Source of the DNA: Arthrobacter russicus
GTDB lineage: Bacteria; Actinomycetota; Actinomycetes; Actinomycetales; Micrococcaceae
NCBI RefSeq assembly: GCF_031454135.1
Contig: NZ_JAVDQF010000001.1
Span: 1,984,001 to 2,048,000 of the forward strand
Reading direction: 5' to 3'
DNA length: 64,000 nucleotides
Numbering within the stretch: position 1 is the stretch's first letter; each line of letters starts with the position of its first letter. A program made the position numbers and the translations under genes. Below are positions 3,794-31,433 of this stretch, piece after piece. The notes under the pieces are model-generated. The model saw only the letters and a list, made by a program, of their open reading frames with translations. It searched no databases and was not told the DNA's origin.

Positions 3794-4315
3794 TCAGCGG
3801 GCGAACTCTTCGCCCCCGGCGCCCTCTTCACCCGGGCGCCGTTCTTTGGCCGCCGGATTGCCGTCGTCCGGTGGAATCCGGCAGAACCGCTCCACTACCA
3901 AACCGACCACGACCATCGCAGCGGAGCCGCCGATCAATACCAACGGCAAAGTCAGCACCCCGGCGCCGGCCCCATAGGCGATTGCGACCATGGCGTCCAC
4001 CGCGACCCCGGCGTGCCAGCCCAACAACAAGGCACCAGCATAAGCACTGGCTTGGGCCAGCACTAGGGTCCGGGCGGCCAAAATCGGGTTGAGCTCCCGG
4101 TCCCGTTTGCCGTCCCGCCACCGGCGCACCCGCAAACCCAACACCAAAACGATCACGATGACCAGTCCCAGGGTGACCAAGGCGCTGTAGGGCAAGGCCG
4201 GCGTCGGCAAGCTGAACCGGTTGGTGAGCACCGTGGCCGACCAGCCTGCGGCAGCAGCGATCACGGCGATCACGGCGAGCCACAAGGGCCGGATAGTACG
4301 GAGCTGGGACTTCAT
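3794..4315 (-). CDS. DUF3180 family membrane protein
   Basis: This 173-residue protein has four hydrophobic segments at about residues 10-30, 42-62, 88-106 and 112-140, and a charged cytoplasmic tail. It matches the actinobacterial DUF3180 family, which typically sits directly after folK in the folate operon, as here. No enzymatic motif is visible and the function is unknown. An 81-bp gap separates it from folK and a 106-bp gap from the PH-domain pair, so an internal promoter is possible. No clear one was recognised. Confidence 0.82.
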   Translation of the reverse strand: MKSQLRTIRPLWLAVIAVIAAAAGWSATVLTNRFSLPTPALPYSALVTLGLVIVIVLVLGLRVRRWRDGKRDRELNPILAARTLVLAQASAYAGALLLGWHAGVAVDAMVAIAYGAGAGVLTLPLVLIGGSAAMVVVGLVVERFCRIPPDDGNPAAKERRPGEEGAGGEEFAR

Positions 4316-4396
4316 GGCTTCCTCGGCTTGGAATCGGCAAAGCTATTGCATCAACGGTATCAATCCGGCCGGCTCGGCCCGGTCAACCGGCTTGGT

Positions 4397-4903
4397 TCAC
4401 CCGGCATACCCGTCGAAGTCCTCGACGTCGTCCAAATCGCGGGCAGCGCCGGCCAGATCCCGGACCGGCATTCCGGACAGGGTGGCGTGCGGGTTCATCA
4501 AAAGCCACGGGACCAGCACGAAAGCACGCTCCGCGGCCCTGGGGTGCGGCAGGGTCAGTTCCGGATCGTCCTGCTGCAGATCGCCGTACACGATGATGTC
4601 CACGTCCAAGGTCCGCGGGCCCCATCGGACGACCCGCTCCCGGTGGTGTCTGGCCTCGACCGCTTGGCAGTGCGCCAGCAGCTCAACCGCAGACAATTCG
4701 GTTTCGACCTCCATCACCATGTTCAGGTAAGGAGGCTGGTCCGGCGGACCGCCGACCGCCTGGGTCTGCACCACCGGGGAGACGTCGCACAACCGCACCT
4801 GGGGATGTTCGACCAGGTCGGCCACGGCACTGGCCAGGGTTCCGGCCCGCTCGCCGAGGTTGGAGCCCAATGCGAGGATCGCGCGGACCGGCAATCCGCT
4901 CAT
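4397..4903 (-). CDS. folK: 2-amino-4-hydroxy-6-hydroxymethyldihydropteridine diphosphokinase
   Basis: HPPK transfers pyrophosphate from ATP to 6-hydroxymethyldihydropterin in folate synthesis. The 168-residue length is normal. The N-terminal LALGSNLG (about residues 10-17) and the signature RWGPRTLDVDII (93-104), with its two metal-binding aspartates, are both intact. The start ATG overlaps the folB stop in an ATGA arrangement, so folB and folK are translationally coupled. The call is secure. Confidence 0.97.
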   Translation of the reverse strand: MSGLPVRAILALGSNLGERAGTLASAVADLVEHPQVRLCDVSPVVQTQAVGGPPDQPPYLNMVMEVETELSAVELLAHCQAVEARHHRERVVRWGPRTLDVDIIVYGDLQQDDPELTLPHPRAAERAFVLVPWLLMNPHATLSGMPVRDLAGAARDLDDVEDFDGYAG

Positions 4904-5316
4904 CCCTGTTCCCGGTAAACCGTGACCGAGACATCTCCGAAGGGCACCTGGATCGGAGCTTTCGGCTTGTGCACCGTGATCTCCACTGCGGCGACCGGGA
5001 AGCCGGCCAGCAATTTCTGCGCGGTGCGCTCCGCCAAGGTCTCGATCAGGTCGAAGGGCTCGCCGGTGATCATCGCTTTGATCGCCTCGGCCACCTCGGC
5101 ATAATTCGCAGTCTGGTCCAATTCGTCATTGGCCGACGCCGGCCGGACGTCGGTGAAGAGCACTGCGTCGACGATGAACGGTTGCCCGTCGCTCTTTTCG
5201 CGTTCGAACACCCCGTGGTGGCCGATCGCGGTCACTCCACTGAGCGTGATCCGGTCCGGTCGGGCCAAGGGCGAATCTCGGACCGCAGCGGAATCCGCCG
5301 CCTGTTCTGCCGCCAC
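4900..5316 (-). CDS. folB: Dihydroneopterin aldolase
   Basis: This enzyme cleaves dihydroneopterin to hydroxymethyldihydropterin and glycolaldehyde. It has 138 residues, with an N-terminal stretch of about 20 residues that is longer than minimal family members. The motif GVTAIGHHGVFEREK (about 27-41) and the catalytic lysine region VHKPKAPI (about 114-121) are present. The GTG start at 5314-5316 shares one base with the folP stop. It lies between folP and folK in the same coupled operon. Confidence 0.96.
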   Translation of the reverse strand: MAAEQAADSAAVRDSPLARPDRITLSGVTAIGHHGVFEREKSDGQPFIVDAVLFTDVRPASANDELDQTANYAEVAEAIKAMITGEPFDLIETLAERTAQKLLAGFPVAAVEITVHKPKAPIQVPFGDVSVTVYREQG

Positions 5317-6263
5317 TAGCCCTGGCTTCCATCGCTGCTGCGGACCGCCGGGGCTGCTGCGGCGCGGACTCGGGCCGCCACTTTCGCAGCATGCAGATTG
5401 CCCACCACATCATGCACTCGGATGCCCCACACGCCCTTGCCCGCGGCAATCGCGGTGGTGGCGATGGTGGCGTGGTCCCGTTCGGTCGGTGCCGCCGCCT
5501 TGCCCGCGGTGCTCAGCAACGAACCCAGGAAACGCTTGCGGGAGGTGCCCACCAGTACCCGGTGCCCGAGCTTCCCGAGTTGCTCCAGGTTCGCCAGCAA
5601 TTCCCAATTCTGGTCCGCGGTCTTGGAAAAGCCCAGACCGGGGTCCACGATCAGCTGCTCCGGCTGAACCCCGGCCGAATAGAAGACCTGCAGTGCAGCA
5701 CCGAGCTCGGCGACCACGTCATCGATCAGATTCGCATAACGGATCAGCGAATCCATGATCTTGGCATCACCACGACGATGCATCAAAACGTAAGGCGCCT
5801 TGCGCTCGGCGACCAAGGCCACCATTTCCGGGGTCACGCTCATGCCGGAGATGTCGTTGATGATCGCCGCACCGGCGTCGAGCGCTTTGGCCGCAGTCTC
5901 GGCGTGCCGGGTGTCCACGCTGACCAGGGCGCCGGCTTTGACCATGGCTTCGATGACCGGCATGATCCGCTCCTGCTCGGTGGCCGGATCGACCTCATCG
6001 GCTCCGGGACGGGTTGATTCGCCGCCGATGTCGATCACATCGGCTCCGGCGTAGAACATCCGCAGCCCGTGCGCGATCGCGGTATCCAAGGAATTGTAGG
6101 AACCGCCGTCGCTGAACGAATCCGGAGTCACATTGAGGATGCCGAAGACCACGGCACGGTCCGTGGGCAACTTGTCGAAGCTGGCCGGTTTGCGCGGCGA
6201 GCGCAGCGTCGGCAGTGGTGATGTGGCCGGTCCGGTTCCGGGGGCGGCAGCGAGGGAGTCCAT
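5316..6263 (-). CDS. folP: Dihydropteroate synthase
   Basis: DHPS condenses hydroxymethyldihydropterin pyrophosphate with p-aminobenzoate and is the sulfonamide target. It has 315 residues. The N-terminal 30 residues are Pro/Ala-rich and probably disordered. The signature GILNVTPDSFSDGG lies near residues 41-54, and the second pterin-binding signature, with DIGGESTRPGA, lies near 77-87. The gene is 22 bp downstream of folE and overlaps folB by one base. The downstream lysine/arginine signature (GTSRKRFLG) is also intact. Confidence 0.97.
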   Translation of the reverse strand: MDSLAAAPGTGPATSPLPTLRSPRKPASFDKLPTDRAVVFGILNVTPDSFSDGGSYNSLDTAIAHGLRMFYAGADVIDIGGESTRPGADEVDPATEQERIMPVIEAMVKAGALVSVDTRHAETAAKALDAGAAIINDISGMSVTPEMVALVAERKAPYVLMHRRGDAKIMDSLIRYANLIDDVVAELGAALQVFYSAGVQPEQLIVDPGLGFSKTADQNWELLANLEQLGKLGHRVLVGTSRKRFLGSLLSTAGKAAAPTERDHATIATTAIAAGKGVWGIRVHDVVGNLHAAKVAARVRAAAAPAVRSSDGSQG

Positions 6264-26163: not shown

Positions 26164-27116
26164 GCGTGCACGCCTGATTCGTGTTCCGTGTGCTTGGCCG
26201 GCTCCAACTGGAAGGTGGAGTGTTCGATGCTGACGTCGAAATGCCCGGCGACGCATTGCTGCAATTGATCCAACATCTGCGGCGCATGGCCGTCGTGGAA
26301 ACATTCCTCTTCCACCACGATGTGCGCGGTCAGCACCGGGAGCCCGGTGGCGATCTGGGTCACGTGCAAGTCGTGCACTTCGAGCACGTGCGGCACCCCC
26401 AACAAGTGATCCCGCAGCTGCGCGACGTCGAGGCCCTTGGGCGTTGATTCGAGCAGCACGTTGATGGTCTCCCAGAGCAGTTTCACGGTGCGCGGCAAGA
26501 TCAGCATGCCGATCAGCATCGCGACCAAGGCGTCCGCCTGAACCCAGCCGGTGGTGCTGATGATGATCGCCGCGACGATCACGGCAACCGAACCGAGCGC
26601 GTCGTTGAGCACCTCAAGGAATGCCGCCCGCATATTGAAATTGGCTTTGCGCCCGGTGGCCAGCACCAGCAAGGAGACGACATTGCCCAACAGGCCGATC
26701 ACCCCGAAGACGATCATTTCATTGCTCGCGACATAGCTGGGGTTGATCAACCGGTCAATACCCTCGATCAGCACGAACAGCCCCACGCCCAACAACAACG
26801 CGGCTTGTGCGGTGGCCGCCAGCACTTCGGCCCGGGCGAATCCCCAACTCCGCTTGTCCGAAGTCGGCTTGCCCGCCAGCCAAGCCGCGATCAGCGCCAT
26901 CACCAACCCGCCGGCATCGGTGAGCACATGGGCGGAGTCGAAAAGCAAGGCCAAAGACCCCGTGATGATCGAGCCGATCACTTGGAAGACGAAGACCGCC
27001 AAAGTGATGCCGAGCGCGATGGCGATCCTGGTCCGGTGCACACCGGCACCGTGGTTATGCCCGGCGGAGCCGTGGCTGTGCGCCTGGGTTCCGTGCTGGT
27101 GGCCGTGTTCCGTCAT
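26160..27116 (-). CDS. Cation diffusion facilitator (zinc/cation exporter)
   Basis: This proton antiporter exports Zn or a similar divalent cation. It has 318 residues. The N-terminus is histidine-rich ([19 protein letters not shown]), which fits metal sensing or loading. Six membrane segments span about 28-225. The metal site has HVLTD in TM2; the TM5 counterpart reads EVLND, with Glu where many members have His. A cytoplasmic CDF C-domain follows. The ATG at 27116 was chosen over an upstream start that adds an Arg/Pro-rich stretch. Confidence 0.92.
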
Positions 27117-27171
27117 AGCAGCATCGTAGTGCGTGGCGCTGGGTCCGGATTTCACCGGTTCCGTGACCGGA

Positions 27172-28083
27172 TCAAGTCCCGATCCGGCTGCGGTACCAGG
27201 CACGCGTGGCCGGCTCCGCCAACGAAAACGACGACGGCGGCAACCCGGAGCGATTCCAGAGCGGTGCCGCATCGAGCCAGCCGTCGACGCCGATCATGCT
27301 GACCTGGTGCCGGCTGAACCCGGCGTCGCCGAGCAGCTCCTGCGCCCGCGGCAGCGAAACCGAGCCCGACAAGCCCAGTGGACCGATCTGCGACTCGATC
27401 TGCGCCACGAGTTCGGACAATCGCACCGGTTCGGGAGCGGCTGCATGGAAGATGCCGCCGATCGGGCCTTCGGCCAGCGCCAGAGCCGCCACCAACCGGC
27501 CCAGCTCGACCGAGCTGATCAGCGAAAGCCGCGCGCTGCCATGCTCGATTTGGCTGCCCAGCCTCCGGAAAAGCTTCACCACGCCCGGGATGAACCACCG
27601 GTCCGCCGGACCGTACACCAGATAAGGGCGCAGCACGGTGCCGCCGGCGTCGAGCACCATCTGATCCGCGATCGAGCGGTGGCGGCTAATCATCGACTCC
27701 GGGTTCGCCGACTGGTCCAGAACGCCGATTCCCCGGTGCGGGCCCGAGCCGTAGACCGCTGCCGTGCTCATCTGGAGGCACCGGCTGACCCCTGCCCGGG
27801 CTGCGGCGTCCAGGAGGTTGGCGGTGCCCTGGAGGTACAGCCGCTCCGCCGCCTCGGGGTCCGATCCCAGGTAGGACGTGGCGTTCACCACAATTTCGAT
27901 TCCATCCATGGCCTCTTGTAAGCTGGCCGGGTGGTTCAAGTCGCCGATGAATTGTGAATCGTCGGACCCTGCCGACCGATTCCGCAATAGCACCCGGGGC
28001 TCCGGGGTCGTGGACGCAGACCATGCGGCCAGGATCTGACGACCGATGAAACCGGTAGAACCGATCAGCAGAATCCTCGTCAT
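27172..28083 (-). CDS. NAD(P)-dependent epimerase/reductase-like protein of the butyrolactone cassette
   Basis: The protein has 303 residues. An extended-SDR Rossmann fold has GSTGFIG at about 8-14, MSTAAVYG near 106-113 and TVLRPYLVYGP near 151-161. The usual catalytic YxxxK is not visible; the position instead reads SRHRSIAD. It is divergent from the ScbR-type regulator with 74 bp between. Streptomyces butyrolactone loci often carry a reductase of this kind acting on the ketone or butenolide intermediate, so that role is proposed here. The exact reaction is inference. Confidence 0.72.
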   Translation of the reverse strand: MTRILLIGSTGFIGRQILAAWSASTTPEPRVLLRNRSAGSDDSQFIGDLNHPASLQEAMDGIEIVVNATSYLGSDPEAAERLYLQGTANLLDAAARAGVSRCLQMSTAAVYGSGPHRGIGVLDQSANPESMISRHRSIADQMVLDAGGTVLRPYLVYGPADRWFIPGVVKLFRRLGSQIEHGSARLSLISSVELGRLVAALALAEGPIGGIFHAAAPEPVRLSELVAQIESQIGPLGLSGSVSLPRAQELLGDAGFSRHQVSMIGVDGWLDAAPLWNRSGLPPSSFSLAEPATRAWYRSRIGT

Positions 28084-28157
28084 GAACGCGGGTCTCCTCG
28101 GTAAGCGAACGGGTGCGGACTTCGCTATCCCAGCCTAATTGAACGGAAATTCATACC
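28084..28157. promoter_or_regulatory. Divergent control region of the butyrolactone cassette
   Basis: These 74 bases separate the reductase-like gene (minus) from the ScbR-type regulator (plus), so both promoters must be here. This makes it the likely autoregulatory site for the receptor. GAGGAG precedes the reductase start. I could not recognise a clear autoregulator-element palindrome by eye; only a short TGAAcggaaaTTCA dyad (28139-28152) is evident. Confidence 0.4.
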
Positions 28158-28814
28158 ATGCAAGAAAGGGCGCTGGCCACCCGCTCGCTGATTCTGCTCG
28201 GCGCGGCCCGGGTATTCAACCAGTTCGGCTTCAACGGATCCAACCTCGCCTTGGCCGCGGAAGAAGCCAAGGTGACCAAGGGCGCCGTGTATTTCCACTT
28301 TTCCTCGAAACTGGAACTGGCAAAAGCCGTGATTGCCGAGCAGCACCGGTTGGTGCAGGAGAAAATCGCCGAAAACAACCGGGATGAACAACGCGCGCTG
28401 GCCGTCATGATCGCCAGCTGCCAGGAATTCGCGAATCTGCTGCAAACCGACACCGTGGTCAAAGCCGGCATCCGGTTGACCTTCGAGGGCCCGACTTTCG
28501 GCCTCGACGTCGCGGGCCCCTACATCGACTGGATTGCGGACATGACCCAGCTTGCCCTCACCGCGAAGGAGCAGGGCGACATCAATCCCGACGTCGACGC
28601 CAAGGCCTTCGCGATGTTCCTGGTCGGTTCCTTCACCGGCGTGCAAATGGTTTCGGAAATCATTTCCGACCGCCGTGAACTCAGCAAAGAGATCAAGAAC
28701 ATGTGGTGGTCGATCGGCAATACGGTCTTTTCCGAAAAGGCCCGCAGCGACGCACGGATCAGCACACTGATCGAGGGTCCGCTCGAACCGCTCACGCCTC
28801 CGGAAATGGCGTGA
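28158..28814 (+). CDS. ScbR-type TetR autoregulator receptor
   Basis: The protein has 218 residues. The TetR helix-turn-helix spans about 10-56 and includes LALAAEEAKVTKGAVYFHFSSK in two adjoining blocks, the form typical of ScbR/ArpA/BarA receptors. The C-terminal ligand domain carries FLVGSFTGVQMVSE, also characteristic of this branch. It should repress target promoters until it binds a gamma-butyrolactone. Its 3' end overlaps the converging AfsA-like gene by 23 bases. ScbR family membership rests on these blocks and on the adjacent synthase gene. Confidence 0.83.
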   Translation: MQERALATRSLILLGAARVFNQFGFNGSNLALAAEEAKVTKGAVYFHFSSKLELAKAVIAEQHRLVQEKIAENNRDEQRALAVMIASCQEFANLLQTDTVVKAGIRLTFEGPTFGLDVAGPYIDWIADMTQLALTAKEQGDINPDVDAKAFAMFLVGSFTGVQMVSEIISDRRELSKEIKNMWWSIGNTVFSEKARSDARISTLIEGPLEPLTPPEMA

Positions 28815-29766
28815 CCACAGGATCCGGAAACTCCAGGATGAGCTGAATCCGGGCCCGGACGGTGCTGTGCACCAGCACCTCCACCGACCACGGTTGCATC
28901 CGGGGCCGGCCCTGGCCGGCATCGGTCGGCACCGCCAAAAACCGCACCGGATCCCAGAGTTCGATCGGCTGCTCGAAAGTACCGCCCATCGCGACAATCC
29001 GGCTGCGGTCGAACCCGGCCGCACGTTGCGCCGCCTGTTGCGCCGCGACGAAAAGCAGCATGCCGGGCACATGGTCCAGCGGGTGGTCGAAAAAGACCGG
29101 ATGGTGGGTATCCACCACCAAGAACGGCACCGGGCTGGAATCGTCCAGGACGGTGTTTCGCTCCGGCTGCGACGGCACCCGGGGAAGCGCCGGCCGGGGC
29201 TCGGCAGCCGCGCGCAGACTCCGCGCATTCCGGCGCAATCGCCGATAGACCCGCGGTGCGACCAGTTGCGCCACGGAACTGCCACGAGCCACCAGCTCAC
29301 CGCCGACGTAAAAGGCGCTGGCCGCGTCCAGCCTGCTCAGCAGGCCATTGCGGAAGCGGACCTCGGTCGAGACCACGACCACCACATTGGTGCTGGCAGT
29401 CTCCCGCCAACCGGCTTCGGGAACCAGTTCGAGGGACATCTCCGAAAGCAGGAATTTCTGCTCGAACGGCACCTTGAGGTACCGGTGCGCGATGCAGATG
29501 GAAATCTGCCGAATCGTTTCGGCCACCAAGTGGCCGTCGTAATATCCCGCGTATCCGTCGTAAAGCAGGTGCCACCTGGGCCATTGCACGCCGATCCCGA
29601 AGCGGTCCCGGCCGAGCCGGGTGGAATCGGTGAGGAAGACCTCGCTGAGCGAATGCCGATGGACCAAGCGGCGATCGACGGTCCGCTCGAAGCTGATCGA
29701 AGACGCCGCCCGACCGACGTCGGGAATTTCGGGGAAGGTATCTTCCTGAGCGATTGGCTGATCCAC
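28792..29766 (-). CDS. AfsA/ScbA family gamma-butyrolactone synthase
   Basis: AfsA condenses a beta-ketoacyl thioester with dihydroxyacetone phosphate, the key step of gamma-butyrolactone signal synthesis. The protein has 324 residues. Two AfsA hot-dog repeats are visible. The first has VDRRLVHRHSLSEVFLTD (about 30-47) and the second has FFDHPLDHVPGMLLFVAAQQ (about 224-243), both close to the family consensus. The GTG start at 29766 lies 9 bases after a TATACT -10-like box, so the mRNA may be leaderless. It converges with the receptor gene, unlike the divergent scbA-scbR order in Streptomyces. Confidence 0.88.
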   Translation of the reverse strand: MDQPIAQEDTFPEIPDVGRAASSISFERTVDRRLVHRHSLSEVFLTDSTRLGRDRFGIGVQWPRWHLLYDGYAGYYDGHLVAETIRQISICIAHRYLKVPFEQKFLLSEMSLELVPEAGWRETASTNVVVVVSTEVRFRNGLLSRLDAASAFYVGGELVARGSSVAQLVAPRVYRRLRRNARSLRAAAEPRPALPRVPSQPERNTVLDDSSPVPFLVVDTHHPVFFDHPLDHVPGMLLFVAAQQAAQRAAGFDRSRIVAMGGTFEQPIELWDPVRFLAVPTDAGQGRPRMQPWSVEVLVHSTVRARIQLILEFPDPVVTPFPEA

Positions 29767-29775
29767 AGTTGACCC

Positions 29776-29781
29776 AGTATA
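29776..29781 (-). promoter_or_regulatory. Candidate -10 box of the AfsA-like gene
   Basis: On the minus strand TATACT lies 9 bases before the GTG start, which would place transcription initiation at or next to the start codon. A TTAATT about 9 bases further upstream is too close to be a standard -35. The site was read by eye only. Confidence 0.4.
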
Positions 29782-29825
29782 GAGCCCAAATTAACCCCGT
29801 GGAATACGGCCCAACCGGCCGGAAA

Positions 29826-30410
29826 TCACGGGGATCTGGGCTCGGAACCGGTCCGTACATGCATCCGTTCGCCCTGCAGGCCGAACAGGCTCAGGAATTC
29901 AACGGCTTCCGTTCCGGCCCGGCCGAACCAATGCGGCACTCTGGTATCGAACTCCGCGGCCTCGCCGGGGTGCAGGACCAAGTCCTGTTCGCCGAGAACC
30001 AACCGGAGCCGGCCGTTGAGCACGTACATCCAATCGAAGCCCTCATGACTGCGCGGATCCGGGACCTGCGACTCGGAGCCGGCCGGCAGCACGTGCTTAT
30101 AGGCCTGGATACCGCCGGGGTTCCGGGTCAACGGCACAATCGTGGCGCCGTGGCGTTTGATCGGTTTGAGGTGGATCCGCGGATCCCCAGTGGCCGGTGC
30201 GCCGACCAGGTCGTCCAACGGCACCGCGTACGCCCTGGCCAACGGCAAGAGCAACTCCAGGTTGGGCCGCCGCTGCCCCGACTCCAATCGGGAAAGCGTG
30301 CTGAGCGAAATCCCGGTGCTCGCTGCGACCTGGGTCAAGGTCAGTTTTCGATACTCGCGGAGATTCCGCAACCGCGGTCCCACTGAAGCCAGTAACTCAT
30401 CGGTTTCCAT
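29826..30410 (-). CDS. XRE family regulator with C-terminal cupin domain
   Basis: The protein has 194 residues. An N-terminal helix-turn-helix (about 12-65, including LTLTQVAASTGISLSTLSRLE) is joined to a cupin sensor domain (about 110-185) with SHEGFDWMYVLNGRLRLVLG. The ATG at 30410 was preferred over one at 30488 that would run through the divergent promoter. It is divergent from the flavoprotein gene, a common arrangement in actinobacteria, and probably regulates it. The ligand is unknown. Direct repeats lie in the shared gap. Confidence 0.87.
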   Translation of the reverse strand: METDELLASVGPRLRNLREYRKLTLTQVAASTGISLSTLSRLESGQRRPNLELLLPLARAYAVPLDDLVGAPATGDPRIHLKPIKRHGATIVPLTRNPGGIQAYKHVLPAGSESQVPDPRSHEGFDWMYVLNGRLRLVLGEQDLVLHPGEAAEFDTRVPHWFGRAGTEAVEFLSLFGLQGERMHVRTGSEPRSP

Positions 30411-30419
30411 GACCCAATC

Positions 30420-30446
30420 TTGCCATAACAGCAAAAAAGTTTGCCA
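30420..30446. promoter_or_regulatory. TTGCCA direct repeats in the XRE-flavoprotein gap
   Basis: Two TTGCCA hexamers at 30420-30425 and 30441-30446 are 21 bp apart, two helical turns. They lie in the 66-bp divergent gap between the XRE-cupin gene and the flavoprotein gene and are a candidate operator for the regulator. Confidence 0.4.
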
Positions 30447-30476
30447 ATCGTTTATCCCGTGGGACAAGCTGGCGAG

Positions 30477-31433
30477 ATGCAAAAACACTATGACGCAATC
30501 ATCATCGGCGGTGGCGCCGCAGGCCTGAGCGCCGCCCTGACACTCTCCCGCGCCCGTCGGAAAGTATTGCTCGTCGACGCCGGTGAGCCGCGCAATGCGC
30601 CGGCCTCAGGGGTCCACGGCCTGCTCGGCAACGAAGGCATCGCGCCGGCCGAGCTGTACCGGATCGGCCGGAACGAGGTCACCGGCTACGGCGGCACGGT
30701 CCGGCCGGGCCGGGTGCAATCCGTTCAGCAGGAACCTTCCGGCGGATTCAGCGCGACGCTTGCGGATGGAACGGCGGCCGCCGCGCGCCGGATCATCCTG
30801 GCGGTCGGCCTGGTGGACGAATTGCCGGAAATCCCCGGACTCCGCGAGCACTGGGGCCGTGCCGTGCTGCATTGCCCGTATTGCCACGGCTGGGAAGTCC
30901 GGGACCAACAGATCGGGATCATCGGCACCGGACCGTTCTCGGTGCACCAGGCGCTGCTCTTCCGGCAATGGAGCAGCAGCGTGACTTTGTTCCTCAACGA
31001 TGCCGTCGAACCGGGCGAGGACCAGTTCGACCAGCTCTCCGCGCGCGGGGTTTCAGTGGTGGACGGCGCGGTGCAACAGGTGGACAGCGAGGCCGGCCGG
31101 CTCACCGGCGTCCGGATCGACGGGCGCCACCACGCCAGCGAGGCACTCGTCGTCGGGCCCAAATTCCGGGCCAGGGCCGAGCTGGCCAAGCAGCTCGGGC
31201 TGGTCCCGGTCGAGCATCCGGCCGGAATCGGCGAATATTTCGAATCCGATCCGGACGGTTCCACTGTGGTTCCCGGAGTCTGGTTGGCTGGAAACGTGCG
31301 GAACCCGATGGGCCAGGTAGGTCTGTCCATGGCCGAAGGAGTGCTCGCCGGTGCTTCGGTGAACAACAGTTTGATGCTCGAAGACGTGGCCGACGCCGTA
31401 GCCAGCGCGAAAGAACTTGCCAGTTGGGCTTAG
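30477..31433 (+). CDS. Thioredoxin reductase-like NAD(P)/FAD-dependent oxidoreductase
   Basis: The protein has 318 residues. The FAD-binding IIIGGGAAGLSAALTLSRA is at about 8-26, and a redox-type CPYCHGWE lies near 132-139. The NAD(P) domain starts at IGIIGTGPFSV (about 145-155). The CPYC cysteines resemble thioredoxin reductase, but no thioredoxin gene is adjacent. The ATG at 30477 follows GGCGAG. It is transcribed away from the XRE-cupin regulator. The electron acceptor is unknown. Confidence 0.88.
   Translation: MQKHYDAIIIGGGAAGLSAALTLSRARRKVLLVDAGEPRNAPASGVHGLLGNEGIAPAELYRIGRNEVTGYGGTVRPGRVQSVQQEPSGGFSATLADGTAAAARRIILAVGLVDELPEIPGLREHWGRAVLHCPYCHGWEVRDQQIGIIGTGPFSVHQALLFRQWSSSVTLFLNDAVEPGEDQFDQLSARGVSVVDGAVQQVDSEAGRLTGVRIDGRHHASEALVVGPKFRARAELAKQLGLVPVEHPAGIGEYFESDPDGSTVVPGVWLAGNVRNPMGQVGLSMAEGVLAGASVNNSLMLEDVADAVASAKELASWA

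Follow-up and report, generated by a model that had tools for sequence, protein, structure and literature searches.

A putative gamma-butyrolactone-type cassette with a diverged synthase in Arthrobacter russicus, and a candidate receptor-linked RNA in other Micrococcaceae

The cassette and its three genes

The window, a 64,000-nucleotide stretch of the Arthrobacter russicus genome (G000:C1:1984001-2048000 of a 3.82 Mb one-contig genome), contains a three-gene cassette that an earlier note, made from the sequence letters, described as a self-contained gamma-butyrolactone signalling circuit consisting of an AfsA/ScbA-type synthase, a ScbR-type TetR receptor and a reductase-like epimerase. The open reading frames (ORFs) confirmed the three genes, their coordinates, and the 23-base overlap and 74-base divergent gap between them. 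Column counts in an alignment of homologues were used to describe two short sites inside the synthase gene, which are given with the genes below.

27172-28083, minus strand: GblE-type NAD(P)-binding epimerase/dehydratase-like protein, 303 amino acids (PF01370)
28084-28157: divergent gap of 74 bases between the epimerase and receptor genes
28158-28814, plus strand: ScbR/GblR-type TetR receptor, 218 amino acids, isoelectric point (pI) 5.1 (NF041196)
28792-28814: tail-to-tail overlap of the receptor and synthase genes, 23 bases
28792-29766, minus strand: AfsA/ScbA-type double hot-dog synthase (GblA-like), 324 amino acids, GTG start (NF041195, PF03756)
29035-29049, minus strand: codons V240-A-A-Q243-Q244 in the helix of repeat 2, where the family majority is E/D..R-Q (column counts)
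29506-29520, minus strand: codons E83-T-I-R86-Q87 in the helix of repeat 1, intact (column counts)

The synthase matched the ScbA_BarX model NF041195 at 222.2 bits, above the curated cut-off of 200, and the Pfam AfsA model PF03756 in two stretches corresponding to both hot-dog repeats. AlphaFold models it as a double hot dog (mean predicted local distance difference test score, pLDDT, 81.9) in which helix 78-95 holds residue 83 and helix 235-250 holds residues 240 and 243. The best structural matches of the model were mostly acyl-ACP (acyl carrier protein) and acyl-CoA (coenzyme A) thioesterases, and a sequence search of solved structures gave no match at E up to 1. In a 61-row tree the protein fell among ScbA/BarX proteins, with a stem 1.46 changes per column long, and not with unrelated hot-dog proteins. 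The assignment as an AfsA/ScbA-type synthase with both repeats was thus upheld, with the second repeat lacking the E..R pair.

Homologue searches gave 141 listed proteins, one search contributing 120 of its 235 matches; for the column counts the copies from the window and from the second cassette took the place of the own-cluster copies P0001 and P0121, which keeps the total at 141 sequences. Among the matches listed, E83, R86 and Q87 of repeat 1 were identical in 141/141 sequences (and in 61/61 tree rows), and in repeat 2 column 240 was E in 128/141 and D in 6/141 and column 243 was R in 127/141. The window synthase has VxxQQ in repeat 2 and keeps ExxRQ, a majority feature of this set and no official criterion, in repeat 1 only. 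Valine or isoleucine at 240 combined with Q243 was found, among the matches listed, only in the window protein and P0001-P0003, with I240 and Q243 in P0002 (80% identical to the window synthase) and P0003 (78%). Other departures in repeat 2 were S/Q in P0118, which bears a ScbA/BarX name from its source, S/C in P0138, A/L in P0140 and P0141, D/W in three proteins, and others, as well as those in L074, L075 and L081, and the pair is therefore not invariant. Across the 17 loci with the three-gene layout (the window, L005, L058-L067, L069, L070, L076, L084 and L088), the window alone departs from E at position 240; position 243 is Q in the window, K in L076 and L084, and R in the other 14, the L084 synthase match having one internal stop. 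Decay of the entire second repeat was considered and rejected, as its identity to the Micrococcaceae majority was 30/51 columns versus 28-35/51 in intact relatives outside that group. The E..R residues of ScbA reportedly have a catalytic role.

The receptor matched the ScbR model NF041196 at 177.7 bits, above the curated cut-off of 150, and was confirmed as ScbR-type. Ligand-contact and DNA-contact positions were taken from PMC7347384 on AvaR1, the avenolide receptor of S. avermitilis, where some residues carry two numberings. At seven lactone-pocket positions (Q64, T108, W127, V158, F161, T162 and Q165) the window receptor agrees with AvaR1, which argues that it is not one of the TetR proteins that do not bind butyrolactones, the case that the earlier note had named as its refutation. 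It differs from AvaR1 at positions 85, 88, 105, 130 and 131 (C, F, I, D and M), and its chain specificity may differ from that of AvaR1. An acidic or neutral pI marks 'true' rather than pseudo receptors (PMC5974925), and the window receptor, with its pI of 5.1, lies on the 'true' side of this rule; the pI of the receptor of a second cassette in the same genome, described below, is 5.0. The window receptor grouped with other Micrococcaceae receptors with support 87/85, an unstarred branch in a poorly resolved tree in which 7/32 inner branches were starred.

The third gene matched PF01370 at 63 bits, and its product shares 33-42% identity with the epimerases found at 18 other synthase loci. A gene of NAD-epimerase/dehydratase type thus adjoins gblR in the GblA-GblR-GblE layout, which identifies it as GblE-type. 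No solved structure matched it by sequence at E up to 1e-8. Short-chain dehydrogenases/reductases (SDRs) carry a Tyr/Lys pair in the motif YxxxK; this pair was absent in 19/19 aligned GblE-type rows, in which Arg takes the Lys place with no Tyr four positions earlier (a 20th aligned row, L087_E, is a different kind of protein and stands outside the 19). The label 'reductase' is therefore doubtful, and GblE-type proteins may not be ordinary oxidoreductases. The reaction step of GblE is given as unknown in PMC5735094, which fits this absence.

Related cassettes, operators and a second copy

The GblA-GblR-GblE cluster has been published for Rhodococcus, with a lactone demonstrated in R. jostii (PMC5735094), and the same three genes with the receptor between, on the opposite strand, occur in R. 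jostii RHA1 and on plasmid pDF01 of Rhodococcus sp. p52. The pDF01 locus (L088) has the gene order of the window. The order epimerase, divergent receptor and convergent synthase was also found in 12 of the 13 other Micrococcaceae genomes with a synthase above the ScbA cut-off; the 13th (L068) has no adjacent receptor. The convergent and divergent layout, presented in the earlier note as peculiar, is therefore that of Rhodococcus and of most of these relatives, and was dropped as a novelty. In 15 cassettes, the window included, the receptor and synthase stops lie -161 to +75 bases apart. Unlike the window synthase, the three Rhodococcus synthases in the tree (P0024, L086 and L088) keep the E..R pair of repeat 2. 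The Streptomyces ScbA/ScbR and ArpA/AfsA-type systems (e.g., SbbR/SbbA) are alike in synthase and receptor families, in the pocket and in acidic pI.

Over the ScbA cut-off, a synthase was present in 2/7 genomes of the genus, both of the window species with two copies each, in 15/395 genomes of the family sample (23/395 at E<=0.001), and in 3/396 genomes of the order sample, 2 of these 3 in Micrococcaceae. ScbR was over cut-off in 61/395 family genomes (for instance at G001:C1:2702114-2702683 and G002:C40:16866-17441), 46 of which had no ScbA over cut-off, and many receptors look like orphans. A 98% identical synthase was found in Renibacterium sp. isolate RGIG571, a metagenome-assembled genome (MAG) and the sole relative found in named genome contigs. 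Many Arthrobacter homologues are already named 'ScbA/BarX family gamma-butyrolactone biosynthesis protein' by their sources, and the occurrence in Micrococcaceae is therefore already known to databases. In the literature, as far as its text was available, no functional work on such butyrolactone genes in Arthrobacter or Micrococcaceae was found.

A whole-genome search of the window genome gave two ScbA loci and two ScbR loci over cut-off, and complete cassettes were found twice in each of both genomes of the species. The second set is as follows.

G000:C1 about 1177.5-1180.05 kb (L005): complete second set of the three genes, same layout, 0.83 Mb from the window cassette

Identities between the two cassettes are 35% for the synthase, 30% for the receptor and 36% for the epimerase, and the synthase and receptor genes of the second overlap by 4 bases. 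The second synthase keeps the E..R pair of repeat 2 and has, about 45 bases upstream, an autoregulatory element (ARE) with 1 mismatch to the consensus given below; in the second receptor, positions 108 and 165 are S and H, and DNA-contact position 43 is Q. The two synthases take separate places in the 61-row tree. On this and on the 30-36% identity a recent duplication was rejected; a single clade of the two synthase lineages was not rejected by the approximately unbiased test (p-AU 0.253), and an old shared ancestry of the two cassettes is therefore still allowed. Two cassettes per genome were likewise rejected as a novelty, since several clusters per genome are described in PMC5735094 for R. 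pyridinovorans, R. opacus PD630 and R7. Beside the second cassette lies a major facilitator superfamily (MFS) transporter gene with a weak ARE-like site upstream (L005:2274-4643 and 4094-5347, together with a GH3-type gene), and the domains of the GH3-type gene stand in two ORFs of one frame with a stop between them.

Operators were sought with the SfbR ARE consensus AAACVGNNBVNNCSGTTT (PMC7480387). An ARE with <=2 mismatches stood upstream of the synthase or beyond the epimerase in 16/18 other synthase loci (exceptions L068 and L084), and matches to the consensus also occur elsewhere within these loci. Between the genes of the window cassette no ARE with <=2 mismatches was found. In 28084-28157, where the earlier note had proposed a check of receptor binding, no operator was recognised; the weak inverted repeat there (AGCGAA-11-TTCGCT) was reached by 69/300 shuffles and is no better than chance. 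The best window match (16/19) to a 26-base consensus falls within the synthase gene, at 29090, and was not counted as an operator, and a sigma-70 promoter scan of 27100-30600 gave no match. A genome-wide ARE regulon was rejected at <=1 mismatch, with 72 strand matches versus 76 for a reversed control pattern. The sole perfect ARE in the window genome (G000:C1:1166916-1166933, L106:12916-12933) lies about 11 kb from the second cassette, just before a gene read by eye as panD, and may be the operator of another TetR protein.

A candidate receptor-linked RNA in other Micrococcaceae

In eight cassettes of relatives the region beyond the epimerase holds an ARE and a -10-like box, together with a conserved hairpin whose bulge reads GGGGGG, the promoter boxes being read by eye. 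A covariance model was built from these 8 loci with the hairpin and without the ARE, and was searched against the 395 family genomes. The element lies as follows.

L132-L152, about 1501-1575 of each; L058:10612-10688; L145; L150: structured RNA with a G-rich bulge and hairpin, preceded by an ARE

Matches at E<2e-5 were obtained in 21/395 family genomes, 8 of which gave the model and 13 of which are independent, and all fell in genomes with ScbR over cut-off (21/61 versus 0/334 others). Each of the 13 independent best RNAs is preceded by an ARE that lies 88-108 bases before its G run and has at most one mismatch to the consensus (none in 11 of them), and a ScbR gene lies within the fetched ~3 kb of 12 of them, the exception being L144. 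No ScbA over cut-off is present in 11 of the 13 independent genomes (G052 has a lower match), and all 11 have ScbR over cut-off. A further copy of the RNA occurs in G262 (L175). Weaker matches (E up to 0.01) occurred in 17 more genomes, most of them probably by chance, because only 5 of the 17 are among the 61 ScbR-positive genomes. When receptor loci were searched, 3/19 had the RNA (L175, L195 and, weakly at E 0.002, L189), and it is therefore a trait of a subset.

Seven of the 8 model RNAs fold with z -1.2 to -4.8, and RNAalifold on the eight gave little covariation (term -0.19). In the stem flanking the bulge, pairing was better with the own partner than with dealt partners (430 versus 304, standard deviation 15; 0/20000; 21 RNAs, with relatedness not removed), and the hairpin had 5 pairs with changes on both sides versus 1.5 on average after shuffling (22 rows, including two opposite-strand matches). 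No Rfam family was found at the RNA site at gathering scores in the 8 loci, and at E up to 1 in 15 loci the sole overlap was at chance level (L139, E 0.96). Genes for tRNA-Ala(GGC) were present in 12/18 RNA loci scanned. In the window genome the RNA was absent at E<=0.01; the best match in the window falls within the synthase gene (13.2 bits over 20 bases; E 0.017 for 9 kb), and the best match at the second cassette had 10.5 bits.

It is probable, in our judgement, that in a good part of the Micrococcaceae ScbR-type receptors repress this undescribed structured small RNA, with the ARE apparently overlapping its -35 box, both in synthase-bearing cassettes and beside receptors that have no synthase, and that the window species is a derived case without the RNA, with two full cassettes and one synthase lacking the E..R of the second repeat. 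If true, receptor control of a small RNA, often by an eavesdropper, would mean that the butyrolactone system is wired in a new way. The comparison points to the small RNA as a direct target of the butyrolactone-type receptor in some members of the Micrococcaceae and to many receptors that lack a synthase, and it yields concrete, testable operators and transcripts. This RNA is a more surprising lead than the cassette itself.

Interpretation and genomic setting

The reading that we favour slightly for the window cassette is a GblA-GblR-GblE gamma-butyrolactone-type signalling cassette. Its gene identities, layout, receptor pocket residues and low ratios of nonsynonymous to synonymous substitution (dN/dS) are read directly from the sequence; that a lactone is made and sensed in the window species we infer. 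GblA would link a beta-ketoacyl chain with a C3 unit derived from glycerol, further enzymes, perhaps GblE, would finish the lactone, and the lactone would pull the TetR-type repressor GblR off its operators, the window synthase representing a putative diverged lineage without the E..R pair in its second hot-dog helix. All three ORFs are open in both genomes of the species. Support for this reading comes from the ScbA/BarX and ScbR scores over cut-off, the two complete cassettes in each genome of the species, the layout common to most of the relatives and to pDF01, the R. jostii cluster with its demonstrated lactone, the pocket agreement and acidic pI of the receptor, dN/dS of 0.09-0.14 in the three genes, and the presence of V/I240-Q243 in P0002 and P0003 as well.

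Several observations weigh against this reading. No ARE with <=2 mismatches was found just beyond the window epimerase or directly upstream of the synthase (a diverged operator is possible), and the sole nearby ARE with 2 mismatches (30001-30018) lies inside an XRE-type regulator gene and is absent in the other genome of the species. The low dN/dS values between the two genomes (0.14 for the synthase, 0.12 for the receptor and 0.09 for the epimerase) rest on 17, 7 and 15 nucleotide differences, respectively. Given the strong conservation of E/D240 and R243 elsewhere, the window synthase may also be inactive. Because the V/I240-Q243 change is shared with two further sequences 78-80% identical to it and the remaining protein is conserved, we think that the synthase still acts, with altered chemistry or substrate. 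The claim of a self-contained circuit could not be sustained, as the synthase is without the conserved pair, a convincing ARE was not found, and the second cassette could supply the signal of the window cassette or cross-talk with it.

Less probable, yet a serious alternative, is that the window synthase has lost the ability to make the standard signal and that its receptor, with an intact pocket, responds to lactone from the second cassette or from neighbours. The missing pair beside a kept receptor pocket fits such a role, as do the second cassette, which has both the E..R pair and an ARE with 1 mismatch before its synthase, and the commonness of receptors without a synthase (the 46/61 family genomes above). 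The low dN/dS of the synthase and its conservation in P0002 and P0003 favour kept activity instead, and the two receptors differ at pocket positions 108 (T/S) and 165 (Q/H) and so may not share a ligand. It is unlikely that the product of the cassette is a lactone-like metabolite that plays no part in quorum sensing while the receptor only autoregulates the pathway; in favour, neither a convincing ARE nor a target gene was found near the cassette, but the cassette has a dedicated receptor gene of the lactone-binding type. A decaying remnant, which the diverged synthase with its long stem and missing residue pair might suggest, is highly improbable in view of ORFs open in two genomes, dN/dS of 0.09-0.14 in three genes and two further synthase sequences at 78-80% identity.

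Taken as a signalling cassette of the GblA-GblR-GblE type, the locus is a real finding that is mostly ordinary in kind, with a twist of its own in the changed synthase, the kept receptor pocket and the second cassette. It would extend a known kind of signalling to a Renibacterium-like species, and two synthases in one cell, with and without the E..R of repeat 2, offer a natural way to test which AfsA residues are required.

Two further genes lie beside the cassette.

29826-30488, minus strand (as the synthase): XRE-cupin regulator directly upstream of the synthase, 59 bases apart
30441-31433, plus strand (opposite): TrxB-like flavoprotein gene

Neither a SARP (Streptomyces antibiotic regulatory protein) gene nor an antibiotic cluster was noticed next to the window genes, for which no systematic search was made. 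The cassette (both enzymes and the receptor) and the XRE and TrxB-like genes fill a variable slot with no match in G001 and G005. The genes that flank the slot (POT transporter, PGM and CDF on one side, and three genes starting from 32573) stand in the same order in G001 and G005, and their order is kept in part in G006.

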